From contig CAIQPR010000028.1 in the NCBI GenBank assembly GCA_903873775.1, forward strand, positions 1 through 34,995: 34,995 nucleotides of DNA. Direction: 5' to 3'. The notes below the pieces were generated by a model, which was not told where the DNA came from, did not search any database, and saw only the letters and a list, made by a program, of their open reading frames with translations. Position 1 is the first letter of the stretch, and the number at the start of each line of letters is the position of its first letter. Of the stretch, positions 5,916-29,866 are shown piece after piece. The position numbers were made by a program, and so were the translations under genes. Source of the DNA: an uncultured Actinomycetes bacterium. Its GTDB lineage: Bacteria > Actinomycetota > Acidimicrobiia > Acidimicrobiales > RAAP-2.

Positions 5916-6785
5916 TTAGGCGAGCCCGGGTGACGACAGCGTGCCGAGGCGGGCCACGATCGCGCCCGCCAGCGTGTGTGCGATTTGGGGACGATGGGTC
6001 AAGAACAACGACGGCTCGACGAGTTCGAGCTCCATCAGAAGCCACGTGTCGCCCGAGCGCACGAGGTCGACGCGGGCGTAAAGGAGATCCGACGCGCCGG
6101 CGGCCGCCAGCACGCGGTTCGCGGCTTCCAGCAGACCCTCGCGGGGTTCGTCGGGCGTCATGGACTCAATGAGGTACAGACGCGTGCGATCCATCTCGCG
6201 CGCATTGAGCATCGCGGCCTTGTTCATGACGTGCGCGAGCTGGCCGTCAATGAAGATGACCGCGAACTCGCCCTCGTCGTCCACGCTCGCCACATAGGGC
6301 TGAATCATCGCCACGCGGCCCGCGTCGTGCAGCGACGTCATGTGGACCTCCGCGCGGTCCCGCTGGGTGAAGGTAAAGCGTTCCGCGCCCCGGGAGCCCG
6401 CACCCACGGAGGGCTTGACGACCATGTCACCGCTCGGCCACACGGGCGTCTCGTGGGGGGCAACGAACGTGGTGGGCACTACGTCGACTCCGGCGCGTGC
6501 GAGTTCCCCGAGATAGCGCTTGTCGGACGACCAGCGCATGATGGCGGGCGGATTGAGCAGACGCGGCACCCGGGTCGTCCACGCGAGAAAGTCTTCGTAG
6601 TGGTCGGTGTAATCCCACGTCGAGCGCACCACGGTGAGGTCGAAGTCGTCCCACGGCACACTCGGGTCATTCCAGACCACGAGGCTCGGCACCACACCCA
6701 GTTCCCGTAGCGCCGCGAGAACGAGGGGTGAATCGGGATCAACGTCCTCGCCGGCGCACGTCGCAATCGCGACGCGGGCACTCAC
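5916..6785 (-). CDS. ATP-grasp domain protein (DcsG/RimK-like), coupled to nuoN
   Basis: 289 residues from GTG 6785, chosen because GTGA overlaps the nuoN stop by four bases, the same coupling seen elsewhere in this operon; the frame further upstream lies inside nuoN. Motifs: VRSTWDYTDHYEDFLAW (about 53-69), found in the family containing the cycloserine enzyme DcsG; the nucleotide-binding VVKPSVGAGSRG (K124 followed by a glycine-rich loop); and a C-terminal metal-binding LMELELVEPSLFL. Such enzymes ligate a carboxylate to an amine or thiol through an acyl-phosphate. The substrate is unknown. It is the last gene of the nuo transcription unit, so it should be co-expressed with complex I, but there is no sequence evidence that it modifies the complex. 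Confidence 0.82.
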   Translation of the reverse strand: MSARVAIATCAGEDVDPDSPLVLAALRELGVVPSLVVWNDPSVPWDDFDLTVVRSTWDYTDHYEDFLAWTTRVPRLLNPPAIMRWSSDKRYLGELARAGVDVVPTTFVAPHETPVWPSGDMVVKPSVGAGSRGAERFTFTQRDRAEVHMTSLHDAGRVAMIQPYVASVDDEGEFAVIFIDGQLAHVMNKAAMLNAREMDRTRLYLIESMTPDEPREGLLEAANRVLAAAGASDLLYARVDLVRSGDTWLLMELELVEPSLFLTHRPQIAHTLAGAIVARLGTLSSPGLA

Positions 6786-8278
6786 GGCTTCTGAAGGAAG
6801 AGCAGCGTGGCGTTGTGCGCCAGCGCCGCCAGCGGGGTCACCCACACACCGAACAAGACCGCCGTGCCCGCCCCGAGGCCGATGACGGTGCCACTCGCCA
6901 GAGGCACGTCGACACGCGCGGGGGCGTCGGTCGTCTCGGCGGCGTCCGTGGCGTCATCGGCGTAGAGCGCGAGAACCAGGCGGAAATAGAAGTAGGCGGC
7001 CACCGCGGCACCGATCATCGCGAGCACGGCCAACGGGGCGCCACCGGCGTCCACGGCGGCGGCGATGACGGAGTACTTGGCGAAGAAACCCGTCGTGAAG
7101 GGGGCGCCGGCCTGGGCCAACAGGAGGACCGTCAACGCGCCACCGAGGAGCGGTTGGCGACGCGCCAGCCCCCGGTAGCGATCAAGGGAGTGACTGTCGT
7201 CTCCGAGCCCCGAGACCAGAGCCACCACCGCGAAGGACGCGATCACGACCGGCGTGTAGGTCATCACGTAGTACAAGGTGCCGGCAACGCCGCGAGCCGT
7301 GCCCGACCAGAGACCGAGCAGCATGAACCCCGCCTGGTTGATGGAGGAGTAGGCCAAGAGACGCTTGATGTTGCGCTGCACCAGAGCGATGGAGGCACCG
7401 ACGAAAATCGAGAGGACCACCAACACCCACACCACGGGACGCCAGGCCTGGACCTGCGTGCCGAATCCCGAGGCGAACACGCGCAAGAGAGCGGCGAACG
7501 CGCCCACCTTCACCACCGCCGCCATGAAGCCGGTGACCGGTGTCGGCGCGCCCTCGTAGACGTCGGGTGACCACAGGTGGAACGGCACGGCGGCAATCTT
7601 GAAGGCGAAGCCGACGAGCAGGAGGCCGAGACCGGCGAGCAGGATGCCGTTGGACGTCAGAACGTGGGTGCCGAGGAAGTACGAGATCGAGGTCAACGTC
7701 GTCGAACCGGTCGCGCCGTAGGTCAGGGCCGCTCCGTAGATGAACACGGCCGAGGCGAAGCCCCCGAGCAGCAAGTACTTGAGGGCGGCTTCGGCCGAGT
7801 TCGCCCGGCGGCGGTTGAACGCGACGAGCACGTACAGGCCGATCGACAGGATTTCGAGACCGAGGAAGATGACGATGAGGTCATTGGCCTGGGCCATGAT
7901 CATCGCGCCGGACGTGGCCGCCAGCGTCAGGATCTGGTACTCGACGCCGCCGTGACCCTCACGACCGATCCAGTCGTGGGCCACGAGGGCGCTGAGCCCG
8001 AGACCAAGGGCGATCACGCCGGTCGTGACGACGGAGAAACCATCGAGCACCACGGCGTGCGCGAGCGTCGTGCTGGCCCCGTGGACGGCCACGTTGTGCC
8101 ACTGGAAGAACGCAACGACGAGGCTGGCGATGCTCGACAGCACCACGACAACCGTTCCGACGGTGCGCTCGAGTCGCTGCGGGCTCAAGGCGGCCGCGAA
8201 CAAGAGCACCACGGCGGCGCCCAGGACGATCAGCTCCGGCAGGATGGCCAGGTAGTGGACAGAGGGAACGTGCAACAT
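6782..8278 (-). CDS. nuoN: NADH-quinone oxidoreductase subunit N
   Basis: 498 residues from ATG 8278; the preceding codon is a GTG (8281) that could also be used, giving 499. This is one of three antiporter-like proton-channel subunits of complex I. Motifs: NDLIVIFLGLEILSIGLYVL carries the conserved TM5 glutamate, and FAFKIAAVPFHLWSPDVYEG carries the channel lysine with the broken-helix PFH segment. About 14 hydrophobic helices can be counted. The start overlaps the nuoM stop (TGATG), and the TGA stop overlaps the GTG of the ATP-grasp gene. Placement after nuoM follows the standard nuo order. Confidence 0.96.
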   Translation of the reverse strand: MLHVPSVHYLAILPELIVLGAAVVLLFAAALSPQRLERTVGTVVVVLSSIASLVVAFFQWHNVAVHGASTTLAHAVVLDGFSVVTTGVIALGLGLSALVAHDWIGREGHGGVEYQILTLAATSGAMIMAQANDLIVIFLGLEILSIGLYVLVAFNRRRANSAEAALKYLLLGGFASAVFIYGAALTYGATGSTTLTSISYFLGTHVLTSNGILLAGLGLLLVGFAFKIAAVPFHLWSPDVYEGAPTPVTGFMAAVVKVGAFAALLRVFASGFGTQVQAWRPVVWVLVVLSIFVGASIALVQRNIKRLLAYSSINQAGFMLLGLWSGTARGVAGTLYYVMTYTPVVIASFAVVALVSGLGDDSHSLDRYRGLARRQPLLGGALTVLLLAQAGAPFTTGFFAKYSVIAAAVDAGGAPLAVLAMIGAAVAAYFYFRLVLALYADDATDAAETTDAPARVDVPLASGTVIGLGAGTAVLFGVWVTPLAALAHNATLLFLQKP

Positions 8279-9819
8279 CACTTCGGCTCCGTGCTCTGCT
8301 CAATCACGATGACGTGGTGGTTCACCGTGGGGGTGATCCGGTCCAGAACGGGCTTGGGGTAAACACCGAGCAGAACGATCAACACAATCAACGGCGCGAC
8401 AATCCACCGCTCGCGCGACGAGGCGTCGCTGATCTCCGCGTTCGCGCCTTCAGCCTGTCCGTGGAAGACCCGCTGGTAGGCCCACAACAAGTAGAGAGCG
8501 GCCAAGACCACGCCCAGTGTGGCCACCGTCGCCCACCACGTGTGTGTGCCGAAGGTGCCAATGAGGACGAGGTACTCACTCACAAACCCCGACAGACCGG
8601 GCAGGCCAATCGAGGCCAGCATCACGACCGTAAACAGTGCGGCCAGCACGGGGGCCGGTCGCTGGAGACCCGCCAGGTCAGAGATCTGCGCGGTGCCGCG
8701 ACGGTGCTCGATGAATCCGATGATCAAGAAGAAGGCGGCCGTGATGACACCGTGGTTGAACATCAACAACACCGCGCCGGTGATGGCGATCTTTGATCCT
8801 GAGGCCACACCCAGAATGATGAAACCGACTTGCGCGAGTGACGAGTACGCCACGAGGCGCTTCATGTCCTTCGACATGGCCGCGAGCGCCGACCCGTACA
8901 GAATGCCGATGACGGCCAGCGTCATCAGATACGGCTGGACAGTGTGGAGGGCTTCCGGCAGGAGGAAGATCCCGAATCGCAGCAGACCGTACGTACCCAA
9001 CTTGGCGAGCAGAGCCGAGAGGACCATCGAACCCGCGATGGGCGCTTCGGCGTACGCCAGCGGCGACCAGGTGTGGAAGGGGAAGATCGGGGACTTGACC
9101 GCGAAGGCAATCGCGAAGGCCACGAAGATCCACACGGCCGTGCCGTGGCTCAGCGTCGCGGACTGGAGGACGATGTAGTTGAACGTCAGGTCGCCGCCGT
9201 GTGCGTGCTGGTAGCTAAACGCCAAGTAGATGAGGCCCACCAGGAGGAATCCGGAGCCGAACAACGTGTAGACGAAGAACTTGAGCGCTGCGCGGGAACG
9301 TTCCTTGCCACCCCACTGGGCGATCAGGAAGTAGCTCGGAATCAACGTCAATTCGAAGAACAAGAAGAACTCGAGCAGGTCGAAGGACACAAAGCTGCCG
9401 ATCGTGGCCGTTGTCAGCAGCAACAGCCATCCCACAAATGCCGGCTCATTGCGACGCTCGCGGGCCCCGAGCAGCGCGAGGAGCACCACAATGGCCGTCA
9501 GCAGCACGAGGAAGAGGGACAGACCGTCCACCCCGACCTCGTAGGCGAGACCAAAGGAGCGAGCGATCACCCAGCGGTGCGCGAAGTCCAGCGTGGTGGA
9601 GATCGATCCCGGGGTGCATCCCTTCGTCGCGCACGGCAGAACGACCGTGTTGTGCCACGAGTACAGGCCGGTCACGATCGCCGCGAGCACGAGCTCGACC
9701 GACGCCGTCACCACACCCACGACAAACGCAGCCCCCGGCACCTTGCGCGACGCGACCACCGCAACTCCCCCGACGAGCGGGACGAGAAGCAGGACGTTGA
9801 TCCACCAGTAATTGTGCAT
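8278..9819 (-). CDS. nuoM: NADH-quinone oxidoreductase subunit M
   Basis: 513 residues from ATG 9819, which begins MHNYWWINVLL, a hydrophobic first helix; the open frame upstream of it is arginine-rich and lies over the small ORF. Antiporter-like proton-pumping subunit. The TM5 glutamate is E156 (FFLFFELTLIPSYFLI) and the channel lysine is K242 (AVKSPIFPFHTWSP). Two cysteines (C63, C68) lie in a predicted non-membrane segment between the first helices and could form a disulfide; this is inference. It starts 2 bases after the stop of the small nuoL-nuoM ORF. Confidence 0.96.
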   Translation of the reverse strand: MHNYWWINVLLLVPLVGGVAVVASRKVPGAAFVVGVVTASVELVLAAIVTGLYSWHNTVVLPCATKGCTPGSISTTLDFAHRWVIARSFGLAYEVGVDGLSLFLVLLTAIVVLLALLGARERRNEPAFVGWLLLLTTATIGSFVSFDLLEFFLFFELTLIPSYFLIAQWGGKERSRAALKFFVYTLFGSGFLLVGLIYLAFSYQHAHGGDLTFNYIVLQSATLSHGTAVWIFVAFAIAFAVKSPIFPFHTWSPLAYAEAPIAGSMVLSALLAKLGTYGLLRFGIFLLPEALHTVQPYLMTLAVIGILYGSALAAMSKDMKRLVAYSSLAQVGFIILGVASGSKIAITGAVLLMFNHGVITAAFFLIIGFIEHRRGTAQISDLAGLQRPAPVLAALFTVVMLASIGLPGLSGFVSEYLVLIGTFGTHTWWATVATLGVVLAALYLLWAYQRVFHGQAEGANAEISDASSRERWIVAPLIVLIVLLGVYPKPVLDRITPTVNHHVIVIEQSTEPK

Positions 9820-9821
9820 AC

Positions 9822-9980
9822 TCAGCCGACCCTCACCGCGACGTAGATGACCGCGGCAACGATGATGAGGCCGTAGAGGCCCCACTTCACCGTGCGCGCG
9901 ACCATCTTCGCGAAGAATCGCAGAACGAACAGCAGGACGATCGCAATGGCGATCGCGATCCAGATATCAGGATGATTCAT
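9822..9980 (-). CDS. Small two-helix membrane protein between nuoL and nuoM
   Basis: A 52-codon ORF, ATG 9980 to TGA 9824-9822, fills the gap between nuoL (stop at 9983) and nuoM (start at 9819) with only 2 bases on either side, exactly the spacing of a real operon gene. The protein begins MNHPDIWIAIAIAIVLLFVL, then a short basic stretch (RFFAKMVARTVKWG), then a second hydrophobic segment (LYGLIIVAAVIYVAV) ending RVG. The pattern is two TM helices joined by a positively charged, probably cytoplasmic loop. I do not recognise a family. Context suggests a complex I accessory or assembly peptide, which is inference. A GAGGT lies about 11 bases upstream of the ATG inside the end of nuoL. Confidence 0.72.
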   Translation of the reverse strand: MNHPDIWIAIAIAIVLLFVLRFFAKMVARTVKWGLYGLIIVAAVIYVAVRVG

Positions 9981-9982
9981 AC

Positions 9983-11854
9983 CTACCACGACCTCGAAGT
10001 CAAGAACACGACGAGCACCGCCAGAGCGGCCACCATCACCAATGCGTATTGACGCAGCAAGCCGGACTGCACCTTGCGCAGGCCCTCACCCGATCGTCGG
10101 GTCGCGACCGCGACGCCGGTGACCGCACCGTCAATGATCTGGGGCTCCACAACGTCGGCACCGAAGGCGGCCACCTGTTGCGCCGGGCGTCCGATCGTGG
10201 CGTCATAGAAATCGTCCCATCGCCACACGCGCTCGAGGAACGACGATTCGTACCGCGGCCAGGGCGACGTCGACTTCCACAGGGTGAATGCCGTGAGAAT
10301 GCCAATGATCGCCGCGATGACGTCCGCACTGGCGAGGCCGAATTGAGCCGCGGTTGATGCGTCCGGGGTACCGGGAGCGGCGGCCACCGAATTCGCGATG
10401 AAGTGGGCGATGGAGTCGTGGTGCACCCACGGAAGGTCGAGGATGCCACCGAGCGTCGCGGCGACCGCGAGGATCACGAGAGGCAGCGTCATGATCCACG
10501 GCGACTCGTGGGGATCGTGACCCGCGGTGATCTCACGGAATCGCTCCTCACCGCGGAATGTGAGAACGAAGAGACGACTCATGTAATAGGCGGTGAGGAT
10601 GGCGGTGATCAGTCCGAGCACCCACAACGGCTTCGAGTAGCCGTACACGTTGGTCAACACGTCACCCTTGGACCAGAAACCCGCGAACGGCGGAATGCCC
10701 GAAATGGCCAACCACCCAATGGTGAAGGTCGGGAAGGTCAGGGGCAGATACTTCTTCAGCGCACCCATCTTGCGGAGATCCTGCTCGCCGTTGAGGGAGT
10801 GGATGACCGAGCCCGAACCGAGGAAGAGCAGCGCCTTGAAGAACGCGTGGCAGACCATGAGGAAGATGGCGGCCGAATAAGCCCCGGCGCCGACCGCCAG
10901 CACCATGTAGCCAATCTGCGAGACGGTCGAGAAGGCCAGCACCTTCTTGATGTCCTTTTGGGAGGTGGCAATCGTGGCCGCCACGAAAGCGGTGATGCCA
11001 CCAATGATCGCGATCGTCCAACGTCCCGACGACGAGAGGGCGAGGACCGGCGACATGCGCACCAGCAGGTACACGCCGGCGGTCACCATGGTCGCCGCGT
11101 GGATCAGGGCGGACACGGGCGTCGGGCCCTCCATCGCGTCGGGCAACCAGTTGAACAGAGGGATCTGCGCCGACTTACCGGTCGCCGCGAGCAAAAGCGC
11201 GAGCACGGTCAAGGTCGCCGTCGTCGGCGTGAAGTCGTGCAGGCGACTGAAGATGGTTTCGTAGGTCAAAGAGTGCGTGGCGTGGAAGATCAAGAACATC
11301 GCCAACAACAGGCCCACGTCACCGACGCGGTTGTAGATGAAGGCCTTCTTCCCCGCCGAGGCGGCCGAATCCTTTTCGAAGTAGTAGCTCACCAGCCAGT
11401 ACGAGCACACACCCACGCCCTCCCAGCCGACGAAGGTCAGCAGGAGATTGTTCGAGAGCACGAGCACCAGCATCGAGAACACGAAGAGGTTCAAGTAGAT
11501 GAAGAACTTGTTGAAGTCCCGCTCACCGTGCATGTACCCAATGGAGTACAGGTGAATAAGAGCCGAGATACCGGTCACGAACAAACACATCGTGATCGAC
11601 AGCGGATCCACGAGCAGCGCGGCGTGCACGTCGAGCCCGCCCGTCGAAATCCACGTGAACAGGTTGACGGAGATCTCGCGCGACGAATCGCCGAGAAGTA
11701 GGAAGAACGCGATCACGGTGGCGACAAAAGAACCGGCCACGGCCGACGTCGCGATCCAGCCGTACGAGGGCTCCTTCAGCGAACTGCCGAATCCGAGCAT
11801 CGACAAGAAGCCGACCAACGGCAGCAGCGGAATGAGTAGTGCGACGTGTGACAT
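9983..11854 (-). CDS. nuoL: NADH-quinone oxidoreductase subunit L
   Basis: 623 residues, full length for NuoL. The distal antiporter-like subunit with the lateral helix. Seen: VDPLSITMCLFVTGISALIH near 82-101, E145 in FVGWEGVGVCSYWL, K227 in AATGKSAQIPLFNWLPDAM, and the following EGPTPVSALIHAATMVTAG. A long C-terminal amphipathic region ends in a last hydrophobic helix (ALVMVAALAVLVVFL). It follows nuoK by 1 base and precedes the small ORF by 2 bases. Confidence 0.97.
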   Translation of the reverse strand: MSHVALLIPLLPLVGFLSMLGFGSSLKEPSYGWIATSAVAGSFVATVIAFFLLLGDSSREISVNLFTWISTGGLDVHAALLVDPLSITMCLFVTGISALIHLYSIGYMHGERDFNKFFIYLNLFVFSMLVLVLSNNLLLTFVGWEGVGVCSYWLVSYYFEKDSAASAGKKAFIYNRVGDVGLLLAMFLIFHATHSLTYETIFSRLHDFTPTTATLTVLALLLAATGKSAQIPLFNWLPDAMEGPTPVSALIHAATMVTAGVYLLVRMSPVLALSSSGRWTIAIIGGITAFVAATIATSQKDIKKVLAFSTVSQIGYMVLAVGAGAYSAAIFLMVCHAFFKALLFLGSGSVIHSLNGEQDLRKMGALKKYLPLTFPTFTIGWLAISGIPPFAGFWSKGDVLTNVYGYSKPLWVLGLITAILTAYYMSRLFVLTFRGEERFREITAGHDPHESPWIMTLPLVILAVAATLGGILDLPWVHHDSIAHFIANSVAAAPGTPDASTAAQFGLASADVIAAIIGILTAFTLWKSTSPWPRYESSFLERVWRWDDFYDATIGRPAQQVAAFGADVVEPQIIDGAVTGVAVATRRSGEGLRKVQSGLLRQYALVMVAALAVLVVFLTSRSW

Positions 11855-11855
11855 G

Positions 11856-12161
11856 TCAGCCCTTCAACTCCGACAATTCATCCACCGCGGTGGACGAGCG
11901 GCGACGGAACACCGCGACAACGATGCCGAGGCCCACTGTGACTTCGGCGGCCGCGACGACCAGAACGAAGAACACCGCAGCTTGGCCGCCAATGTCCTTC
12001 AGGGAATGAGCGAACGTCACGAAGGTCAGGTTCACGGCGTTCAGCATGATCTCGATGCACATGAACATGATGAGTGCGCTGCGACGGGTCAGAAAACCGA
12101 AGGCTCCTACGCCGAAGAGCAGTGCCGCGACGATGAGGTACCACGAGGCCGGAATCGTCAT
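11856..12161 (-). CDS. nuoK: NADH-quinone oxidoreductase subunit K
   Basis: 101 residues with three TM helices, the normal size. The two membrane glutamates needed for proton translocation are present: E37 in MCIEIMLNAVNL and E73 in AAAEVTVGLGI. The start overlaps the nuoJ stop by ATGA, indicating translational coupling. Confidence 0.96.
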   Translation of the reverse strand: MTIPASWYLIVAALLFGVGAFGFLTRRSALIMFMCIEIMLNAVNLTFVTFAHSLKDIGGQAAVFFVLVVAAAEVTVGLGIVVAVFRRRSSTAVDELSELKG

Positions 12162-12727
12162 GCGTCCTCCCCGACGAGATCAAGACTGCGCTCCTTGCGC
12201 GCAAGGATGACCGCTCCGACCACCGCGATGATGAGGAGAGCGGACGTGATTTCGAACGCGTAGAGATAGGTGGTGAACACCGCGGTGCCGAGCGCCTTGA
12301 TGTTGTCATTGCCACCTTGGCTGGGAATCCCGTTGGTTGACGCGGACGACGCCCCGGTGACCCAGTGGGAGTGCGCCATCATCACCACCACGCCGGCGAC
12401 GGTGATGAGAACGCCGAGAGCCGCGAGCGGACGCTGACCGACGAGGGGTTCCCCGGTGTCAACATCGGGTCGGTCGACGCCCAAGAACATGATCACGAAG
12501 AGGAAGAGCACCACGATGGCGCCCGCGTACACGATGATTTCGACGGCGGCCAGGAAATGGGCGTCGAGTTCAATGAAGGCGATGGCGATGCCGAAGAAGG
12601 TCATGATCAAACTCAGCGCGCTGTGCACGGGGTTCTTCACGGTGATAACCAGAACCGCGCCCACCAGCATGAGGGCGGAGGCGACGACGAAGACAATGAC
12701 GTCGGGAATTGCGTAGGTGGCCAACAT
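12158..12727 (-). CDS. nuoJ: NADH-quinone oxidoreductase subunit J
   Basis: 189 residues from ATG 12727, which overlaps the nuoI TGA as TGATG; the codon just before it is a GTG (12730) that would also work. Five hydrophobic helices are seen, with the family segments NPVHSALSLIMTFFGIAIAF and EIIVYAGAIVVLFLFVIMFLG. It belongs to the membrane hinge region of complex I. The loop between the last two helices (about 105-145) is Ser/Gly/Asn-rich and longer than in many homologues. The stop overlaps the nuoK start. Confidence 0.95.
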   Translation of the reverse strand: MLATYAIPDVIVFVVASALMLVGAVLVITVKNPVHSALSLIMTFFGIAIAFIELDAHFLAAVEIIVYAGAIVVLFLFVIMFLGVDRPDVDTGEPLVGQRPLAALGVLITVAGVVVMMAHSHWVTGASSASTNGIPSQGGNDNIKALGTAVFTTYLYAFEITSALLIIAVVGAVILARKERSLDLVGEDA

Positions 12728-13500
12728 CACGACTTGTCCTTCGGTCCCCAGCGGTCCATCAGAGGTTCCGGCACCATGTCTTTGAGCTTGGCCAGTCGAT
12801 CCTTCATGGTGTTGCGGCCGAGCGGCACGTCCTCGGGCAGCAGGTGCTTGGAGAACGCGTCGCGCAACTGCTTGCTGCCCGTCGCGGCGTCGTCGCGCTC
12901 ACCGTTCTGCCCGGCCTCTCCCGCGCGGATGCCCACGCCCAGGTCGCCCGACCACTGCACGACGCCTTCGTACTCGGCGTTACCCGCCGGCGCCGTGGCG
13001 CGCATCCATCCGGAGGTCATGTCCGACTCACCTTCGCGCCAGTCCTCCCACGGCAGGCGTTGGGGTTGCCCGTTATCGTCCACCACGAGTTCGGCCTTGG
13101 TGTAGATCGCGTCCGCGCGGTTCGTGAAGGAGAACTCGAACATCTTCGACTCGGTGATGGCCTCCGTGGGGCACGCTTCGACGCACATGTCGCAGTGGAT
13201 GCAGCGGAGGTAATTGATTTCGTAGACGTAGCCGTAGCGTTCGCCGGGGCTGACCGGGTGGTCCGGCGGATTGTCGAGACCGCGCACGTAGATGCAGTCG
13301 GCCGGGCACACACCCGCGCACAACTCGCACCCGATGCACTTCTCCATGCCGTCTTCGTAACGATTCAGGACGTGGCGACCGTGCTGACGCGGCTGCTTGG
13401 GTCGCTTTTCCTTCGGGTAGGACGACGTCACGCGTGGACGCGAGAGGTGCTGGAAGGTCAGCTTGAAACCGTTGAAGAAACTGAAGGGCGAATCGGCCAT
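12727..13500 (-). CDS. nuoI: NADH-quinone oxidoreductase subunit I, long C-terminus
   Basis: 257 residues. Two classical 4Fe-4S motifs are complete: CIGCELCAGVCPADCIYV and CIHCDMCVEACPTEAI, which bind clusters N6a and N6b and carry electrons towards NuoB. The upstream basic segment (RPRVTSSYPKEKRPKQPRQHGRH region) is typical. After the second ferredoxin motif there are about 140 residues, of which roughly the last 90 (after SDMTSGWM) are hydrophilic and acidic/basic with no motif I recognise; E. coli NuoI is about 180 residues in total. The start shares one base with the nuoH stop (TAATG). Confidence 0.95.
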   Translation of the reverse strand: MADSPFSFFNGFKLTFQHLSRPRVTSSYPKEKRPKQPRQHGRHVLNRYEDGMEKCIGCELCAGVCPADCIYVRGLDNPPDHPVSPGERYGYVYEINYLRCIHCDMCVEACPTEAITESKMFEFSFTNRADAIYTKAELVVDDNGQPQRLPWEDWREGESDMTSGWMRATAPAGNAEYEGVVQWSGDLGVGIRAGEAGQNGERDDAATGSKQLRDAFSKHLLPEDVPLGRNTMKDRLAKLKDMVPEPLMDRWGPKDKS

Positions 13501-14756
13501 TAGTTTTCCTCCTCCCCGCTCTCCACGTCGCCGTCGGTCACCGCGCGCAACTTCTCGGCCGACATCGGGCGAGCGCCCACAACCGGCAGCACCGATTCCG
13601 GTCCCTGCTCGCGGGTGGCGCCAATCTCAAAAGAACGTGTCAGGGCGAGAGACGCCACGAGCACGAGCGCGGCCATCGCGAAGCCCCAGGACTTGTTGAC
13701 GAAGAATCCGGCGACCACGAGCATCCAGCCCAGGCTCAGCGGGATCAACCGCTTCCACCCGAAGGACATCAACTGGTCGTAGCGCATGCGCGGGAGGGCG
13801 GCGCGGAACCAGATGTAACAGAACGCGAACACGACCGTCTTGCCGAGGAACCAAAGAATCGGGAACACCCAGCGAATGTGCGGGATGTTGGGCACCCATC
13901 CGGCGGGACCGCCGAAGAACAAGGTCACCATGATCGCCGACATCGTGATGGTGTTCATGAACTCCGCGAGGAAGAAGAGGGCGAAGCGCAGCGACGAGTA
14001 CTCGGTGTGGAATCCACCGACCAGCTCGCTCTCAGCTTCCACCACGTCAAACGGCGGACGGTTCAATTCGGCGGTGATGGCGATCAGGAAGACGGCGAAG
14101 GGAACAAGTCCGAGGCGCAGCACATTCCAGTGCCACACGCCGTGCGCCTGCGCGGTCACGATGTCGTGCGTCGACAGGGAGCCCGTCGCGAGCACGATCG
14201 TCACAATCGTCATGCCGAGGGCGGCTTCGTAGGAAATCATCTGCGCACTCGCGCGCACCGAGGACAGCAACGGGTACTTCGATCCCGACGACCACCCGGC
14301 CAGCATCACGCCGTACACGGAGATGCCCGACATCGCGAGCAGCAACAAGATGCCGATCGGCGGGTCGGCGACCTGGAGGAGGAACGTGTGGCTCGCCACG
14401 GTCACCGTGCCACCCACGGGCACAATGGCGAAGGTCAGCAGCGCCGGGATGAGCGCCAAGTACGGCGCCAACTTGAAGACGAAACGATCAGCCTGATTGG
14501 GAATCAGGTCTTCCTTGAAGAACAACTTGATGCCGTCGGCGAGCGTCTGGAGAAGCCCGAAGGGACCCCATCGCTGAGGCCCGATGCGGCTCTGCATGTC
14601 CGAGATGAGCTTGCGCTCGAACCAAATCATCAATGTCACGGCACCCATTAGGGCGCCGAAGGCCACCAGAACCTTGATCGCGACGATCGCGAGAACCGCC
14701 CATCCCACGCCGTTGTCGTACAGCGGGTCGCCGGCGGCAAAGAGAACGAGGTGCAT
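13500..14756 (-). CDS. nuoH: NADH-quinone oxidoreductase subunit H
   Basis: 418 residues, with eight or so TM helices. It forms the quinone-entry chamber with NuoB and NuoD. Conserved loops are visible: RIGPQRWGPFGLLQTLADGIKL region near the N-terminus, ELNRPPFDVVEAESELVGGF with the acidic quinone-site loop, and FHTEYSSLRFALFFLAEF. The C-terminal 40 residues (after EIGATREQGPESV) are hydrophilic and end in a glutamate-rich tail, an extension beyond the membrane core. The start overlaps the nuoG stop as TGATG. Confidence 0.97.
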   Translation of the reverse strand: MHLVLFAAGDPLYDNGVGWAVLAIVAIKVLVAFGALMGAVTLMIWFERKLISDMQSRIGPQRWGPFGLLQTLADGIKLFFKEDLIPNQADRFVFKLAPYLALIPALLTFAIVPVGGTVTVASHTFLLQVADPPIGILLLLAMSGISVYGVMLAGWSSGSKYPLLSSVRASAQMISYEAALGMTIVTIVLATGSLSTHDIVTAQAHGVWHWNVLRLGLVPFAVFLIAITAELNRPPFDVVEAESELVGGFHTEYSSLRFALFFLAEFMNTITMSAIMVTLFFGGPAGWVPNIPHIRWVFPILWFLGKTVVFAFCYIWFRAALPRMRYDQLMSFGWKRLIPLSLGWMLVVAGFFVNKSWGFAMAALVLVASLALTRSFEIGATREQGPESVLPVVGARPMSAEKLRAVTDGDVESGEEEN

Positions 14757-17401
14757 CAGCGGGACTCCAAGCGGATCTCGGTGACGATGGCGTCCGCGTC
14801 GATCACGTAGGTGCCGACGACGTCGACCCCGTCGGTCGTGACGGTGTTGAGGTGCATCTCGGCGGTACCCCGCACGACGTCGTCGTCCACGCGGACCGTG
14901 ACGTCAAAGGAACCCCGCGGCGTCGTCGCGCGCACGACGTCGCCCGTCGTGACGCCGAGTCGGTTGAGGTCGTAGGAGTGTGCCGACACCACTGTCGCCG
15001 GAACAAGGGGACGCAGTGCGGCCGTGCCCTGCACCGCGTCGCCGCGGTCGTAGAGACGACGGGTCGCCACCACCCGGAGGGCGTAGGCGTCGGCGAGGGC
15101 GATGGACGGCACTGGCTGTTCGGGTGTGTCCGCCATTGTCACGGGCGCCAGCGCCGCGGTTGACGAGGCCACCGGCTCTTCGACAGCTCCCGCGCGCGGT
15201 GCGAGACCCACGAGGTCCGCGCTGCGGATACCGGGGAACGCGATGGGGTCGAGCGCGCGGCGCGGCGACGTAAGGTCCGCCCGTCCGACAACGCGACCTT
15301 CGACGGCACCCTCCGACACCACTGACGTCGCGGGATAGCCGGTAGTCGACTCGATGGCGACGCTGGTGGCCTCGACGGAGTCAAGACCCAACGTCTGGCC
15401 CAATTCTTCGGCGAGCTCGGACGCAATCGCGACGTCGGACCATGCGGCGCCCGGGGCGACCAACTTGGCCGCCACAGCGGTGACGCGTCCTTCGATGTTG
15501 GTCACCGTGCCGAAACGCTCGTGGGTGACCGATGCCGGCAGCACCACGTCCGCGGCGGCCGTCGTCGGACCACCGTGACCGGTCACCGCAATCACGCGGG
15601 CGGCCGCGAGTGCGGACGTCGCGAGGGCGCGATCCGGCACGTTGGCGAGCACGTCGCCGCCGAGAATCATCACGGCCGTCTGTTCGCCCGAGGTCAGTGC
15701 GCGCAATTGCTCGATCGTCGAACGTCCGCGCGCCCCGGCGGTGCGGCCGGGACGCAGTCCGGGCGCGAGCCCCATGTCGAGGGCTCCGAAAATGTTGCCG
15801 CGACGCAGGGTCGGCAGGAACCGCGCCTGCGGATATTCGGCGACGAAGGTGCGGATGGCCGACTCAATAACCGCCGCCGACTCGGCCGCGTTCGGTCGTC
15901 CGACGATGAACACCACGCCCTCGCCAGTGTCACCCAGCAGTCGGCGCGCGTCCTCAAGGTCCGCGTCAGAAAAGGCCGCGCCCTGGGGGTGCGTGCCCAA
16001 TTGTGCCAACGCGGAGGAGTCCCCGGCGATGGCGCGCGCCACGATGTGGGCTTCACCCGGACGCGTGGGAAGGGTGACGCGAGACAGCGAACGAAGGGAG
16101 TTCGCACCGGTGGCCAGTTCGATGATGTTCGTGCGCCCCTTGACGGCACTTTCGCGAAGACGCAGGAACAGAATCGGCAGTTCTTCGCGAAGGTCCCCAC
16201 TGAGTACCACCACGGTGCACGCGTGAGCGGCCTCGTCGATGGTGGCACGCGGAATCGCCGACAGCAGAACCGGGTCGAGCCCGTCGCCGTACTGAGCATC
16301 GATGTTCTCGGTCCCGACGACGCCGCGGAGCAGGCGCTCGAAGGCGAAGGCCCCCTCATTCGTCAGTGCGGCCCCACCAATGGCGCCAAAGCCGTCGGGC
16401 GACGTCGCCGTCGCCTCACGAATAATGCGAGCGGCCTCACCCAGCGCCTCTCCCCAACTCACGGGCACCAAGACGCCATCGCGGCGCACGAGCGGCTCGC
16501 GAATGCGCGAGGTCGGATCCGACACGTCGCCCGAGGTGTCCTCGGCGTCGATCGCGTCAATCACAAAACGACCTTTGTCGCACAACCAGCCGTGGTTCAC
16601 CGGGTCGGAATCGACACCGAGCACGCGCGTCAAGCGGTTACCCGAGGACTGCACCGCCACGCGACACCCGACCGCACACGTCGTGCAGGTGCTCTCGACC
16701 TGATCGAGGTCCCAGGGTCGCGCCGCGAATCGGTAGGGCTTCGCGGTCAGCGCGCCCACCGGGCAGATCTGCACGGTGTTGCCGGAGAACACCGAGTCGA
16801 AAGGTTCGGTCGGGAATGGGGCAACCTCAATCTGGTCACCACGTCCGGCGAAGTCAATGGCCGCGTCGCCCGCCACTTCGGCGGCGAATCGCGTGCAGCG
16901 CGAGCACTGGATGCAGCGCTCGCGGTCGAGCAGGACGAGCTCGCCAATGGAGATGGGCTTGGCGAAGTGACGCTTCTCCTCAATGAAACGGGTTTCGCCC
17001 GAACCGTGCGCCAGGGTCTGGTCCTGCAGAGGGCACTCTCCGCCCTTGTCGCAGACCGGACAGTCGAGCGGGTGGTTGGCGAGAAGGAATTCGAGAACGC
17101 CGTCTTGGGCCTTCTTCACTTTTTCCGAGTCCGTCGTGACGACCATGCCGTCGGTGCAGCCGACAAAACACGAGGGCTGCAACGTGGCGCCGCGAGGTCC
17201 GTCCACTTCGACAAGACACATCCGGCAGACGCCGACGGACTCCATGCGCGGGTGGTAACAGAAGCGCGGAATGTAGGTGCCGGCACGCTCGGCCACTTCA
17301 ATCAGCATTTCGCCGGGCTGAGCCTCCACGGCTCGTCCATTGACCGTCACGGTCACGGTGGTGCGGGTCTCGGTCGAATCAGCCATGGGTGCATCCATCA
17401 T
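14756..17401 (-). CDS. nuoG: NADH-quinone oxidoreductase subunit G
   Basis: 881 residues from ATG 17401; ATG 17386 (beginning MADSTETRTT) is an equally reasonable start and reduces the overlap with nuoF from 23 to 8 bases. Iron-sulfur ligands in order: N1b 2Fe-2S (CYHPRMESVGVCRMC, then PSC), the His/Cys N5 site (HPLDCPVCDKGGEC), N4 (CIQCSRC with a distal ICPVGAL), and N7 (CTTCAVGC with a distal WLCDKGRF), a cluster kept in only some bacteria. A molybdopterin-oxidoreductase-like domain follows (about 290-700), then a divergent C-terminal domain resembling the Mopterin-binding beta-barrel (AHSYDLNRLGVTTGD). It belongs to the NADH-input arm. Confidence 0.96.
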   Translation of the reverse strand: MMDAPMADSTETRTTVTVTVNGRAVEAQPGEMLIEVAERAGTYIPRFCYHPRMESVGVCRMCLVEVDGPRGATLQPSCFVGCTDGMVVTTDSEKVKKAQDGVLEFLLANHPLDCPVCDKGGECPLQDQTLAHGSGETRFIEEKRHFAKPISIGELVLLDRERCIQCSRCTRFAAEVAGDAAIDFAGRGDQIEVAPFPTEPFDSVFSGNTVQICPVGALTAKPYRFAARPWDLDQVESTCTTCAVGCRVAVQSSGNRLTRVLGVDSDPVNHGWLCDKGRFVIDAIDAEDTSGDVSDPTSRIREPLVRRDGVLVPVSWGEALGEAARIIREATATSPDGFGAIGGAALTNEGAFAFERLLRGVVGTENIDAQYGDGLDPVLLSAIPRATIDEAAHACTVVVLSGDLREELPILFLRLRESAVKGRTNIIELATGANSLRSLSRVTLPTRPGEAHIVARAIAGDSSALAQLGTHPQGAAFSDADLEDARRLLGDTGEGVVFIVGRPNAAESAAVIESAIRTFVAEYPQARFLPTLRRGNIFGALDMGLAPGLRPGRTAGARGRSTIEQLRALTSGEQTAVMILGGDVLANVPDRALATSALAAARVIAVTGHGGPTTAAADVVLPASVTHERFGTVTNIEGRVTAVAAKLVAPGAAWSDVAIASELAEELGQTLGLDSVEATSVAIESTTGYPATSVVSEGAVEGRVVGRADLTSPRRALDPIAFPGIRSADLVGLAPRAGAVEEPVASSTAALAPVTMADTPEQPVPSIALADAYALRVVATRRLYDRGDAVQGTAALRPLVPATVVSAHSYDLNRLGVTTGDVVRATTPRGSFDVTVRVDDDVVRGTAEMHLNTVTTDGVDVVGTYVIDADAIVTEIRLESR

Positions 17402-18683
17402 TCGTCACGTGCGCCAAGAACTCGTCCCGGAACATCGTTAGCGCCGAGTGAATCGACGACGGAATAGATGAACCGAGAACACAAATCGTCGTCTGCTGCG
17501 GAGGCCAGCCAAGACCCGGCGCGATGTTGTCACACAGGTCGAGCAGCAAATCGAGGTCCTCGCGGCGACCACCACCGTGCTCGAGGCGGAACATTATGCG
17601 CTCCAACCACCCGGAACCTTCACGACAGGGGGTGCACTGACCGCACGACTCGCGCGAGAAGAACTTGGTAATGCGCCAGGCCGCTCGGACCGCGCAGGTG
17701 TCCTCGTCGAACACCACGACCGAGCCCGAACCGAGCATCGAGGCTTTGGCCGCGACTTCGTCCTGGCCGAGTGCGAGGTCTAATTCATCCGGTCCGAACC
17801 AGGGTGCGGAAACGCCACCCGGGATGAACGCCTTGAGCTTGCGGTCACCCGGAATCCCACCACCGAGGGCGGGGTCGAAAATCAGATCGCGGAAGGTGTT
17901 CTTCACCATCTCGAGTTCGAACATGCCGGGGTTGTTCACGCGGCCACTGAGGGCGAACAGGCGCGTGCCGGTCGAACGACCAACGCCGAGGGCCGCAAAG
18001 GCCGCACCACCGTGCGTGACGATCCACGGGAGATTCGACATCGTCTCCACGTTGTTGACCACGGTCGGCTCGCCGTAGAGCCCGATGGCGGCGGGAAAGA
18101 AGGGAGGCTTGATGCGCGGGAAACCACGCTTGCCCTCGAGGGCTTCGATCAAAGAGGTCTCTTCACCACAGATGTAGGCACCGGCACCGGGGTGCACGAC
18201 GATGTCGAGGCTGAAGTTCGAGCCGAAAATGTTCTGTCCGAGCGCCCCGTGCTCGTACGCCTCGTTCAAGGCCTGCTGGACGCGCTCGAGTCCGAGGGCG
18301 AATTCACCTCGGAGATAAATGAACGCTTGGTTGACCTGCAACGCGTACGCGGCGATCGTCACACCTTCCACCAATTGGTGGGGGTCACGTTCGACGAGGT
18401 AGTGGTCCTTGAAGGTCGCCGGCTCCGACTCGTCACCGTTGATGACGAGGTAGCTGGTCGGCGCCTTGCGCAGCATCGACCACTTGCGACCCGCCGGGAA
18501 TCCGGCACCACCGCGCCCGAGCAGCGACGCCGCGTCGACTTCGGCCGCGACGGCCTCCGGCGTCATCGACAGCGCCTTACGCAATCCCTCGTACCCGCCG
18601 GTGGCGAGGTAGCGCGTCAGCGTGTGGGAGTCAGAAAACTCCGCGCGCAACGAGACGATCTTCGGGGCATCCAGTACCGCCAT
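17379..18683 (-). CDS. nuoF: NADH-quinone oxidoreductase subunit F (NADH and FMN binding)
   Basis: 434 residues from ATG 18683 (MAVLDAPKIV), chosen because it overlaps the nuoE stop as TAATG; the open frame upstream is arginine-rich shadow sequence inside nuoE. The NADH-binding glycine-rich loop LLGRGGAGFPAGRKW and the FMN-site AYICGEETSLIEALEG with KPPFFPA and GEPTVVNNVET are present. The N3 4Fe-4S ligands are ESCGQCTPCREG plus a distal cysteine in TTICVLG. The latter is followed by SSIPSSI where many homologues have a less polar DAAA/xPV-like segment, a small deviation. It forms the NADH dehydrogenase module with NuoE and NuoG. Confidence 0.97.
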   Translation of the reverse strand: MAVLDAPKIVSLRAEFSDSHTLTRYLATGGYEGLRKALSMTPEAVAAEVDAASLLGRGGAGFPAGRKWSMLRKAPTSYLVINGDESEPATFKDHYLVERDPHQLVEGVTIAAYALQVNQAFIYLRGEFALGLERVQQALNEAYEHGALGQNIFGSNFSLDIVVHPGAGAYICGEETSLIEALEGKRGFPRIKPPFFPAAIGLYGEPTVVNNVETMSNLPWIVTHGGAAFAALGVGRSTGTRLFALSGRVNNPGMFELEMVKNTFRDLIFDPALGGGIPGDRKLKAFIPGGVSAPWFGPDELDLALGQDEVAAKASMLGSGSVVVFDEDTCAVRAAWRITKFFSRESCGQCTPCREGSGWLERIMFRLEHGGGRREDLDLLLDLCDNIAPGLGWPPQQTTICVLGSSIPSSIHSALTMFRDEFLAHVTNDGCTHG

Positions 18684-19303
18684 TACTGACCTTCCTTGGC
18701 CGTGCGCTCTTCGCGCGCGGCGCGCTCGCGTGTGCGTTCGTCGGCGATCTGCTGGCGCGAGACGCGCAGTCCCCCACTGCGCTTCACGCGAATCAAGGTG
18801 CCGTGCGGAGGAATCTCGTCCTCCCGCTTGCCGTCGCGCAGGTCCGCGACGAGCGCGTCCAGAGCGTCTGGCGTCGTCGTGCGGACGAAGCGGTGGTTGA
18901 CCTGCACGCAGGGCGCAATATTGCAGTCGGCCAGGCATTCGGTTTCTTCGAGCGTGAACAGACCATCGGCGGAGGTGGCGCCAACGGCGCACCCCAGCGT
19001 CTCACTGGCGTGCGCGAGCAGTTCTTCGCCACCGGCGAGCAGGCACGCGATGTTCGTGCATACGCCCACGACGTATTTGCCGACAGGCTCGAGGTGGAAC
19101 ATGTCGTAGAACGCCGCGGTGCCGCGCACCTCGGCCGGCGTGGTGCCGGTGAGTTCCGCGACTTCGATCATTCCCTCGTCGGTCAGGTAGCCGTCTTGCT
19201 CCTGCGCCAAGTGCAGCAGCGGCAGCATTGCCGAGCGTCGCTCGGGGTAGAGCGCGACGGTCTCCTCAGCCCGCTGTCGCAATTCCGGACGGAAATGACT
19301 CAT
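18683..19303 (-). CDS. nuoE: NADH-quinone oxidoreductase subunit E
   Basis: 206 residues from ATG 19303 (MSHFRPELRQ), whose ATGA overlaps the nuoD stop; upstream in-frame residues are shadow sequence. The thioredoxin-like 2Fe-2S fold is evident: the N1a ligands are CTNIAC (C-x4-C) and ECLADCNIAPC (C-x3-C). A basic/acidic C-terminal tail (VSRQQIADERTRERAAREERTAKEG, about 25 residues) extends past the domain. Confidence 0.96.
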   Translation of the reverse strand: MSHFRPELRQRAEETVALYPERRSAMLPLLHLAQEQDGYLTDEGMIEVAELTGTTPAEVRGTAAFYDMFHLEPVGKYVVGVCTNIACLLAGGEELLAHASETLGCAVGATSADGLFTLEETECLADCNIAPCVQVNHRFVRTTTPDALDALVADLRDGKREDEIPPHGTLIRVKRSGGLRVSRQQIADERTRERAAREERTAKEGQ

Positions 19304-20652
19304 CGGTCGACCTCTCCCATGACGGGGTCCACGGTGGAAATCACCGTGATGGTGTCGGACATAAGGCCACCGCGCATCAAGAGCGGGACGGCCTGAAGAT
19401 TGACAAAACTGGGGGCCCGCACGTGAATGCGGTACGGCTTCGGACCGCCGTCGGACACGATGTAGCACCCGAGCTCGCCACGCGGCGATTCGATCGCGGA
19501 GTACACCTCACCGACCGGGACGTGGAAGCCCTCGGTGAACAACTTGAAGTGGTGGATAAGTGCTTCCATGGACTCGTCGATACGCGCGCGCGGCGGCGGC
19601 GTGACCTTCGGGTCCTGGGTGCGGTAGTCGCCGCGCGGCATCATCTCCACACATTGGCGGACGATCTTGATCGATTCGCGAATCTCGTTCAGACGAATCG
19701 CGAAGCGGTCGAAGTTGTCGCCGTACGTGCCGACGATGACATCGAACTCGACCTGGTCGTAGGCGAGGTACGGCATGGTGCGACGCAGGTCCCACGGCAC
19801 ACCGGTGGAGCGCAGCAGCGGACCAGTGACACTGAGGGCCAGTGCCTCTTCGGCGGTCATCGGCGCCACGCCGATCATGCGGTCGCGGAAGATCGGCTGT
19901 CCGGTGAGCAACTGGTCGTATTCGTAGGTACGCGCGTCAATCGTGTCGCAGATCACCGTGACGTCGTCCTGCCACCCGTCGGGCAAGTCCGCCGCCACAC
20001 CGCCAGGGCGCACGTAGTTCAAATTGAGACGCAGACCCGCCGTCTTTTCGAAGAAGGCGAGAATGAGTTCACGTTCGCGCAGACCGTAGATCATCATCGA
20101 CGTCGAACCAAGGTCCATCCCGTTGGTGGCCATCCACACCAAGTGACTCGAGATGCGGTTGATCTCGCTCATCATCATGCGAATCCACACGGCGCGCTCG
20201 GGCACTTCGATGCCGAGCAGCTTCTCGACGGCCATGGAGTACGCGAGCTCGTTATTGATCGGGCTCAGGTAGTCCATGCGCGTGACGTTGGTGGCACCCT
20301 GGACGTAGCTCAGTTCCTCGCCCGTCTTTTCCATGCCGGTGTGGAGGTAGCCAATGACCGGCTTGGTGCGCAGAACGACTTCGCCGTCCAGTTCCAACAT
20401 GAGTCGAAGAACGCCGTGGGTCGACGGGTGGGAGGGACCCATGTTGATGATCATCGTTTCGTCGTCGCGACGCTCGATGTCGATGGACGAAGGGTCGAGG
20501 GTCCGGCCGTCGAGACGAAGGACCGCCCCGACTTCGCGCGCCAGCTCGTCGGTGGCGGTCTGCGCGCGCGGCTTGAGTTCCTGCGGTCCCTCGGACGTCT
20601 CCGCCGTCAACAGGTCGGCACGCTCAATGGTGCGGTAGGTCGGATCGCTCAT
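19300..20652 (-). CDS. nuoD: NADH-quinone oxidoreductase subunit D
   Basis: 450 residues from ATG 20652 ([10 protein letters not shown]), whose ATGA overlaps the nuoC stop. A 49-kDa-type subunit that lines the quinone site. Seen: NMGPSHPSTHGVLRL (quinone-site histidine loop), HTGMEKTGEELSYVQ, DYLSPINNELAYSMAVEKLLG, and the C-terminal ESPRGELGCYIVSDGGPKPYR and GEVDR end, all standard. It has about 60 residues before the core that are not strongly conserved. Confidence 0.97.
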   Translation of the reverse strand: MSDPTYRTIERADLLTAETSEGPQELKPRAQTATDELAREVGAVLRLDGRTLDPSSIDIERRDDETMIINMGPSHPSTHGVLRLMLELDGEVVLRTKPVIGYLHTGMEKTGEELSYVQGATNVTRMDYLSPINNELAYSMAVEKLLGIEVPERAVWIRMMMSEINRISSHLVWMATNGMDLGSTSMMIYGLRERELILAFFEKTAGLRLNLNYVRPGGVAADLPDGWQDDVTVICDTIDARTYEYDQLLTGQPIFRDRMIGVAPMTAEEALALSVTGPLLRSTGVPWDLRRTMPYLAYDQVEFDVIVGTYGDNFDRFAIRLNEIRESIKIVRQCVEMMPRGDYRTQDPKVTPPPRARIDESMEALIHHFKLFTEGFHVPVGEVYSAIESPRGELGCYIVSDGGPKPYRIHVRAPSFVNLQAVPLLMRGGLMSDTITVISTVDPVMGEVDR

Positions 20653-21143
20653 CGGGGTCCCGGCGCTTCCTTGAATTGCACGGGCACACGACCCACGCCG
20701 TAGTCCTTGCGCAGGGGGTGGCCTTCCCACTCCTCGGGCATGAGAATCCGAGTGAGGTCCGGGTGGTGATCGAAGAGAACGCCGAACAAGTCGTACGCCT
20801 CTCGCTCCATCGCCTCCACACCGGGGTACAGATCAAAAAGAGACTCCACGCGAGGGTCGTTCTCGGGCACCTGCACGCGAATGCGAGCGCGCACCTTCTT
20901 CGACAAGCTCAGCAGGTTCACGACAACTTCGAAGCGCTCCGGCGTCACGCCGTCGGGCAGTTGACGACCGGGATGCGTGAGGTAGTCCACCGCGCAGAGG
21001 TCCGCGAGCAGTTCGAAGCCATCGTCCCGGAAGGACGCCACGAGGTCGTGGTACTGCTCTCGCGACGGGAAGCAGGACACGCCGGTGTCGAGACCTTCGG
21101 CGGTCACGACGTCTGTCGGGGCCGTCTCGGGGAGCGCGATCAC
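20649..21143 (-). CDS. nuoC: NADH-quinone oxidoreductase subunit C
   Basis: 164 residues from a GTG at 21143 whose GTGA overlaps the nuoB stop. A 30-kDa-type subunit with the signature [36 protein letters not shown] near the C-terminus (shown in part: [10 protein letters not shown] and EGHPLRKDY). It is a separate gene from nuoD here, unlike the fused NuoCD of E. coli. Confidence 0.96.
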
Positions 21144-21703
21144 TTGGGGGTTCCCAATCGAACTGCGACGGAGGACTCGGGCGTCCAGGGACTCTGCGGC
21201 GTGACCATGGCACCCGGCTTGCCTTCGGCGCGACGCTTCATGATCTCACCGGTGCGGATCTGCTCGTGCAACGTCAAGATGGCGTGCATCAGAGTCTCCG
21301 GGCTCGGGGGGCATCCCGGGGCGTAGACGTCGACGGGCACGATCTGGTCGACGCCCTGGACAATCGCGTAGTTATTGAACATGCCACCACTGGATGCGCA
21401 CACGCCCATGGATATGACCCACTTGGGCTCCATCATCTGGTCGTAGACCTGACGAAGAACCGGGGCCATCTTCTGGCTGACGCGGCCAGCCACGATCATG
21501 AGGTCGGCCTGACGCGGCGAATTACGGAACACTTCCATGCCGAAACGCGCGAGGTCGAAGTCGGCCGCACCGGCCGCCATCATCTCGATCGCGCAGCACG
21601 CGAGACCGAAACTCGCCGGCCACACGGACGCGCGACGGGCCCACCGCACCAGATCTTCGATTTGACCGGTCAGAAAGTTGTGCTGGAGATCTTCGAGCGC
21701 CAC
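21140..21703 (-). CDS. nuoB: NADH-quinone oxidoreductase subunit B (cluster N2)
   Basis: 187 residues from GTG 21703, two bases after the nuoA TAG. Upstream in-frame residues overlap nuoA and do not resemble NuoB. The N2 cluster ligands are the tandem cysteines C36-C37 ([12 protein letters not shown]), C102 (GVCASSGG) and C131 (APGCPPSPE). N2 is the last cluster before the quinone. Homologues begin with a similar short acidic lead ([12 protein letters not shown]). Confidence 0.96.
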
Positions 21704-21705
21704 GA

Positions 21706-22185
21706 CTACGCCGCCTTCTCGCGGTCGATGGTGATGCGCGCAATGGTCGAGGACGATGTGCGCGCCGGCATACCGGGCACCAGGCGCTTGACCGGACCCC
21801 ACGTGAGGGCTCCCTCACTCACCAGGTACAGCAGCGCGCCAAAGACGACGACGGAGAAAATCAGCACTTCGACGAGGCCAAAAGAGCCGAGTTGCTTGAA
21901 CACCACCGCGAAGGGGTACATGAAGACCACTTCGATGTCGAAGATTACGAAGATCATGGCCACGAGGTAGAACCGAACGGGAAAGCGTTGCGGCGGTTCG
22001 ATCTCGGGGACAATCCCGCATTCGTACGGTGCGAGCTTGGCGGCCGATGGTCGCTTGTGCGGCGCCAGCAACGCTGACGCGACGAACGACCCCGACGCAA
22101 AGAGCGCCCCGAGAATCAGGAGTCCCAGTAGGGGGAGGTACTGGTCCACGGTCATCATTTCTACCAGACGACGAGCACGCGTCAT
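21706..22185 (-). CDS. nuoA: NADH-quinone oxidoreductase subunit A
   Basis: 159 residues from ATG 22185; in-frame ATGs at 22158 and 22155 would shorten the protein by 9 or 10 residues and place the start closer to the first TM helix. Three TM helices are seen, with the family motifs YECG (54-57) in the first loop and [10 protein letters not shown] (82-91) in TM2. A GGAAAG about 9 bases before ATG 22185 is a weak ribosome site. It is the first gene of the operon. The C-terminal 25 residues are a hydrophilic extension. Confidence 0.94.
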
Positions 22186-26934: not shown

Positions 26935-26940
26935 GTCGTC

Positions 26941-26946
26941 AGCCTA
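26941..26946 (-). promoter_or_regulatory. Candidate leaderless -10 for hemB, built on the hemD stop codon
   Basis: On the minus strand TAGGCT begins with the TAG stop of hemD and is followed by 6 bases and the hemB GTG. No Shine-Dalgarno is visible. It could instead be read-through transcription from hemD with weak initiation. Confidence 0.35.
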
Positions 26947-27675: not shown

Positions 27676-27678
27676 TGT

Positions 27679-29843: not shown

Positions 29844-29866
29844 CTCCCCGAACTACTGAAATGCTA
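29844..29866 (-). promoter_or_regulatory. hemA -10 candidate and ribosome site
   Basis: On the minus strand TAGCAT (29866-29861), which begins with the rex TAG stop, fits TAnnnT, and GGGGAG (29849-29844) precedes the ATG by 3 bases. The spacing gives a short leader, unlike the leaderless-style starts nearby. Confidence 0.4.

Follow-up and report, generated by a model that had tools for sequence, protein, structure and literature searches.

The 34,995-nucleotide stretch of DNA analysed here (the window) carries a complete nuoA-N cluster on its minus strand, and at the junction between nuoL and nuoM lies an additional gene for a 52-residue membrane protein (Table 1). Read on the minus strand, it runs from an ATG start to a TGA stop and translates as MNHPDIWIAIAIAIVLLFVLRFFAKMVARTVKWGLYGLIIVAAVIYVAVRVG; the plus strand over the same positions gives a different reading. 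Two nucleotides (9981-9982) separate it from the nuoL stop codon (9983-9985), and two more (9820-9821) from the nuoM ATG (9817-9819). A preliminary description of this DNA, made from its letters, had noticed a 52-residue frame with ATG and stop that filled the nuoL-nuoM gap with two bases to spare on each side, and both the translation and the coordinates confirm this. The window's genome holds a single copy. Within the cluster, nuoN and nuoM were told apart by gene order and similarity.

Table 1. Features of the nuo cluster around the 52-residue gene (positions in the window)
Feature	Coordinates	Strand	Basis
52-residue membrane-protein gene, two hydrophobic segments	9822..9980	minus	Translation, orthologues in G063 and G363, protein-level constraint
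nuoL, upstream neighbour	9983..11854	minus	Pfam PF00361, PF00662, PF01010
nuoM, downstream neighbour	8278..9819	minus	Pfam PF00361; full-length match to relatives' NuoM
GAGG, Shine-Dalgarno-like site for the 52-residue gene, inside the nuoL 3' end	9992..9995	minus	Read from sequence
GAGG, Shine-Dalgarno-like site for nuoM, inside the 3' end of the 52-residue gene	9831..9834	minus	Read from sequence
Complete nuoA-N cluster holding the gene	6782..22185	minus	Pfam matches for all 14 genes
nuoA	21706-22185	minus	Pfam
nuoN	6782-8281	minus	Pfam

Upstream of the nuo cluster, the minus strand carries a haem-synthesis run (24680-29840), whose genes we take to be a class-III aminotransferase (hemL-like), ALAD, HemD, porphobilinogen deaminase and glutamyl-tRNA reductase. 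It is followed by what is presumably a Rex-like gene (29864-30559), which has both a CoA-binding and an N-terminal DNA-binding domain. A 375-codon frame on the minus strand (23556-24683), lying between the haem run and a flavoprotein gene, matches no Pfam family at E 0.001.

The protein and its distribution

The preliminary description had also read two membrane helices around a basic loop from the translation. The profile shows two hydrophobic segments: 15-residue Kyte-Doolittle averages peak at 3.31 (from residue 6) and at 2.69 (from residue 35), and between the segments lies a stretch holding R21, K25, R29 and K32, four basic residues that fall within a helical arc of 80 degrees. By the positive-inside rule, such a basic middle would be cytoplasmic, with both ends outside. 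The window has 90 open frames of 45-70 codons, and this one is the most hydrophobic of them, in a ranking that used an upstream GTG start for it (55 codons). From a three-row alignment with the orthologues introduced below, AlphaFold2 predicts one continuous helix over residues 4-51 (pLDDT 85, pTM 0.41), a model to which we give little weight but which does not favour a hairpin.

Family searches gave the protein no name. Pfam has no family for it at cut-off (the window's copy reaches E 0.15 at best, and the lowest E among the three copies known is 0.081), and the best sub-threshold matches are all to unrelated domains; in particular, it matches none of the Pfam families of the complex I core subunits NuoA-N, whose 14 genes are present elsewhere in the window. 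The window's copy has no NCBIfam match up to E 1, while one orthologue weakly matches SepX/GlpR (E 0.011). A three-row profile found no match among PDB chains up to E 10, in a search where short chains are easily missed. A small gene can go unlabelled even in a well-studied operon when no Pfam or NCBIfam family at cut-off and no PDB chain corresponds to it.

Two orthologues were recovered. A search of the class with the single protein (296 genomes) returned one real relative, in G063 (E 2e-15), all other matches being at E 0.009 or weaker. The other came from a scan of another genome collection for nuoL relatives, in which 80 of 201 loci were kept: contig JANXTQ010000132.1 (L031), taken as the same record as contig 240 of G363, has a 160-nt nuoL-nuoM gap with a clear orthologue. 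The copies in G063 and G363 are 65% and 52% identical to that of the window, respectively, 20 of the 53 columns of the three-protein alignment are invariant, and the two hydrophobic segments are retained in all three. In every carrier found (3/3), the gene is encoded together with the nuo genes and at the same junction. In G063, two-base spacers lie on both sides, as in the window; in G363, the frame starts at a GTG that overlaps the nuoL stop and ends 2 nt before nuoM.

The distribution of the gene is narrow. The three-row profile matched 3 of 99 genomes of the genus at E < 1e-26, with nothing else better than 0.011; 3 of 172 genomes of the family at E 0.01; and 2 of 397 in an even draw of the order, also at E 0.01, with G363 not among the matches. 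In a draw of the phylum (396 genomes), the best match outside the genus, which comes next after the window and G063, has E 8e-4 and lies within a 286-codon frame of G009; matches at E 0.1 or better come from 27 of these genomes, the two known carriers included. Plasmids and phages, searched as a source of transfer, gave no match at E 1. Five of the 99 genus genomes have no nuoM match, and absence of the small gene there therefore means little. The preliminary description had made its proposal depend on whether the frame and its hydrophobic pattern persist, unbroken, in close relatives. They do in both sister species, but 96 of the 99 genus genomes show no convincing match, so that the outcome is mixed, though on balance in favour of the proposal.

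The junction itself could be read in most of these genomes. Among 96 nuoM places in 94 genomes of the genus, 90 were read (in 89 genomes), the other six being partial or near contig ends. In 81 of the 90 junctions, nuoL and nuoM lie 0-3 nt apart, and exactly 2 nt apart in 75 of these, in agreement with the earlier remark that the usual nuo order has no gene here. The carriers account for three junctions (gap 160-163 nt); in three more, the nuoM start overlaps the nuoL stop, as judged by eye (L127, L210, L222); and the last three are unreadable, owing to a contig end (L178), the lack of a recognisable nuoL end (L182) or a partial nuoM match (L226). For the class and the phylum, we took the best 57 loci among the matches listed, from two draws of 60 genomes each; seven have no readable nuoL upstream and one is the window, leaving 49, of which 47 leave at most 83 nt between the genes, too little for a membrane ORF of this kind. 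Gaps were estimated from the first in-frame start, which can run small (97 nt for the window against the true 163), or from a start extrapolated from the NuoM alignment, and the bound of 83 nt holds by either.

Other irregularities were seen at this junction. In the remaining two of these 49 loci, L267 and L286 (genomes G026 and G001, from another family of the class), it is widened by about 110-235 nt of repeat-like sequence, such as the repeated CTCCAGT in L286, with no membrane or hydrophobic ORF in it; thus, the nuoL-nuoM junction tolerates different inserts. L092 (PLXU01000201.1, around 3075-3133) has a nuoL match that breaks off at query residue 578, leaving about 57 nt to nuoM, and the usual nuoL end is unreadable; the 3' end of this nuoL may be shortened, frame-broken or affected by an assembly error.

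The carriers form one clade, both in a tree of NuoL and NuoM (77 rows, support 0.953) and in a tree of NuoL (82 rows, support 0.932), while the place of this clade among the other congeners is poorly supported in the former (0.031). L101 and L103, whose sequences end before nuoM and which could have been hidden carriers, do not group with the carriers in the NuoL tree. The simplest history is probably a single gain in the ancestor of the three species.

Constraint on the protein and signals for its translation

The substitutions that separate the three copies argue for selection on the protein. The three species pairs share 33, 27 and 22 identical residues, against 23.9, 15.1 and 16.2 expected from random substitution, and the observed identity was reached in 0, 0 and 1.15% of 2000 random-substitution trials; pN/pS for the three pairs is 0.43, 0.48 and 0.69. 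Differences by codon position show a clear third-position excess between the window and G363 (21, 12 and 32; p 0.01), an excess that is not significant between the window and G063 (11, 12 and 21; p 0.13), and none between G063 and G363 (24, 17 and 22; p 0.54), the pair in which protein-level constraint on the open frame is weakest. The frame is very probably a protein-coding gene whose substitutions preserve the protein, weakly so in one pair.

The gene evolves faster than the surrounding nuo genes. Its pN/pS is 0.46 between the window and G363, against 0.10-0.31 for nuoI-N, and 0.45 between the window and G063, against 0.08-0.19 for nuoH-N, although individual 51-codon stretches of nuoI, nuoM and nuoN reach 0.40-0.57. 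We would expect such fast evolution of a peripheral part rather than of a pump subunit.

Recognisable translation signals accompany the insert. Of the 65 insert-free relatives whose nuoM start is known, 59 have an AGG within the last nuoL codons, at most 16 nt upstream of nuoM, against a background of 0.11 inside nuoL. Seven loci (nuoL 3' ends, L031-L110) have CGG at the usual AGG codon, and six of the seven have an AGG two codons later. This AGG is best read as the Shine-Dalgarno site of nuoM, and the last nuoL codons seem to double as a ribosome-binding site. In the carriers, the start, the stop and the GAGG sites are retained, with GAGG placed as in the relatives. Since the insert brings its own GAGG ahead of nuoM, it appears to have taken over the role that the tail of nuoL plays for nuoM.

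The 52-residue frame is a real gene of narrow, lineage-specific distribution that sits in a core operon and belongs to no known family. On this point the preliminary description, which had seen an unannotated membrane ORF, stands: the gene is foreign to the usual nuo order, lies exactly at the nuoL-nuoM junction and evolves under selection on its protein.

Origin of the gene and role of its product

Because the spacers on the two sides are equal, a tandem duplication across the nuoL-nuoM junction suggested itself as the origin, and it was tested for that reason. The gene would then be a chimera of the first helix of NuoM and the last helix of NuoL, a history compatible with either of the functions discussed below, and one that would account for the two 2-nt spacers. 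Profiles were made from 65 distinct NuoL ends and 64 NuoM starts, omitting the carriers (L001, L002, L031), two loci with unclear ends (L047, L092) and reverse-oriented loci. In anchored 16-residue windows, the score was reached by 2 of 686 null windows for the NuoM start, with a one-residue shift, and by 1 of 668 for the NuoL end, and column permutations reached the end scores in 0.26% and 0.52% of cases, respectively. However, the C-terminal match becomes ordinary once the last three residues, in whose codons the GAGG signal lies, are removed (15/280, 47/174 and 49/84 null windows reach it, at three lengths), permuted columns score as well as the hydrophobic cores (0.15 and 0.54), and the N-terminal match to the NuoM start is strong only in the window's copy. 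Moreover, the NuoL C-terminus resembles the first helix more than the second (0.001 and 0.0002 by permutation, in one of several comparisons made), which a chimera does not predict. The signal thus comes from terminal polar and GAGG-coded residues; a junction duplication is not supported, and we consider it improbable.

As for function, we favour, with a probability of roughly 0.58, a lineage-specific accessory or assembly protein that would serve the membrane arm of complex I as a clamp or aid where NuoL and NuoM lie, by analogy with the cyanobacterial NdhP and NdhQ, to which no sequence relationship was found. A role as subunit or assembly factor, as suggested in the preliminary description, is plausible from the position in the operon, the shared translation signals and the hydrophobic pattern, and it is from the position that we infer an association with complex I. 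The insert would have been fitted into the junction without breaking translational coupling: ribosomes finishing nuoL would re-initiate on the small gene 2 nt further on, and those finishing the small gene would re-initiate on nuoM. The product, which would be made together with NuoL and NuoM, is predicted to have a first transmembrane segment at about residues 6-20, a basic amphipathic stretch at the cytoplasmic surface (R21, K25, R29 and K32 on one face) and a second transmembrane segment at about 34-49, and it would attach peripherally to the distal membrane arm, as a clamp or assembly aid for the L/M antiporter pair. We infer each of these steps, that is, translation, topology, binding to complex I and a stabilising role.

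In the main rival reading, a genuine small membrane protein is made from the nuo transcript but acts elsewhere, for example on another respiratory complex, as a regulator or under membrane stress, the operon serving merely for its expression. What links the gene to complex I is its position; congeners with a NuoL as much as 76% identical manage without it; and the carrier-specific residues of NuoL and NuoM, read as a map of an interface, amount to six positions in which no cluster was seen. Against this, the gene sits precisely at the junction of the two distal antiporter genes; with 2 nt on each side and translation signals in common, the dose of its product would be tied to that of NuoL and NuoM. 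We think it rather unlikely that the protein works elsewhere. Far less credible is a non-coding or decaying insert that is open by chance and encodes no protein. The fast evolution and small size of the gene would fit such an insert, as would the repeat-like sequences without a membrane ORF in L267 and L286, but the frame is open, hydrophobic and alignable in three species, with constraint at the protein level, and its start, stop and GAGG sites have been kept.

Comparison with known small subunits

Proteins of comparable kind have been described in related enzymes. NdhP, NdhQ and NdhL of the cyanobacterial NDH-1L are, like the product studied here, tiny and hydrophobic, and lie outside the conserved core of a complex I-type enzyme. 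In the descriptions available, NdhD is sandwiched between NdhP and NdhQ, which touch both NdhD and NdhF and add to stability (PMC6992706, PMC7021789), and NDH-1L is undetectable without NdhP (PMC4131877). These two subunits sit at the distal NdhD/NdhF part, which is NuoM/NuoL-like (PMC6992706, PMC4131877) and where gene position would also place our protein, but they have one predicted helix each (PMC7021789, PMC6992706); our protein has two hydrophobic segments, which AlphaFold2 modelled as a single long helix. NdhL does have two predicted helices (PMC7021789), although it is placed at NdhA, away from the distal end (PMC7021789, PMC6992706). Unlike the genes of all three, the present gene lies between nuoL and nuoM, and no homology to NdhP or NdhQ was found among PDB chains up to E 10 (NDH-1L chains assumed to be included), in Pfam or in NCBIfam.

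Bacterial complex I is described as having 14 core subunits, with accessory ones in a few bacteria (PMC12361115). The supernumerary subunits reported from these few respiratory complexes include Nqo15/Nqo16 in Thermus, NDUFS4/S6/A12 and PIMT in Paracoccus and MSMEG_2064 in M. smegmatis (PMC11522691, PMC12361115). Like the present protein, they are lineage-specific additions to the core enzyme; none is presented in those accounts as a small two-helix protein of the distal arm (PMC11522691, PMC12361115), and the comparison with their sequences was that of the PDB search, which gave no match. NuoK and NuoJ are likewise small membrane proteins from the same cluster, but they are separately present in the window and 76-92% identical between carriers, and our protein matches neither family. 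PMC9696053 contains nothing on extra reading frames in nuo operons, and no gene at this junction appears in the open-licence titles and abstracts listed on small or supernumerary complex I proteins, nuoL/nuoM or mycobacterial complex I. Complex I-type enzymes are already known to have small, hydrophobic subunits confined to particular lineages, though this gene belongs to no known family.

It is tempting to speculate that an orphan protein of recent birth, for which no convincing relative was found beyond three species, became fixed as a subunit of the complex I membrane arm in one actinobacterial clade, appearing in step with translation between two distal proton-pump genes; we hold this fuller scenario to be possible but doubtful. 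If it were true, a recent small membrane subunit at a known junction would make visible how a core respiratory enzyme acquires a supernumerary subunit, and the related species with an uninterrupted junction would offer a direct before-and-after comparison.
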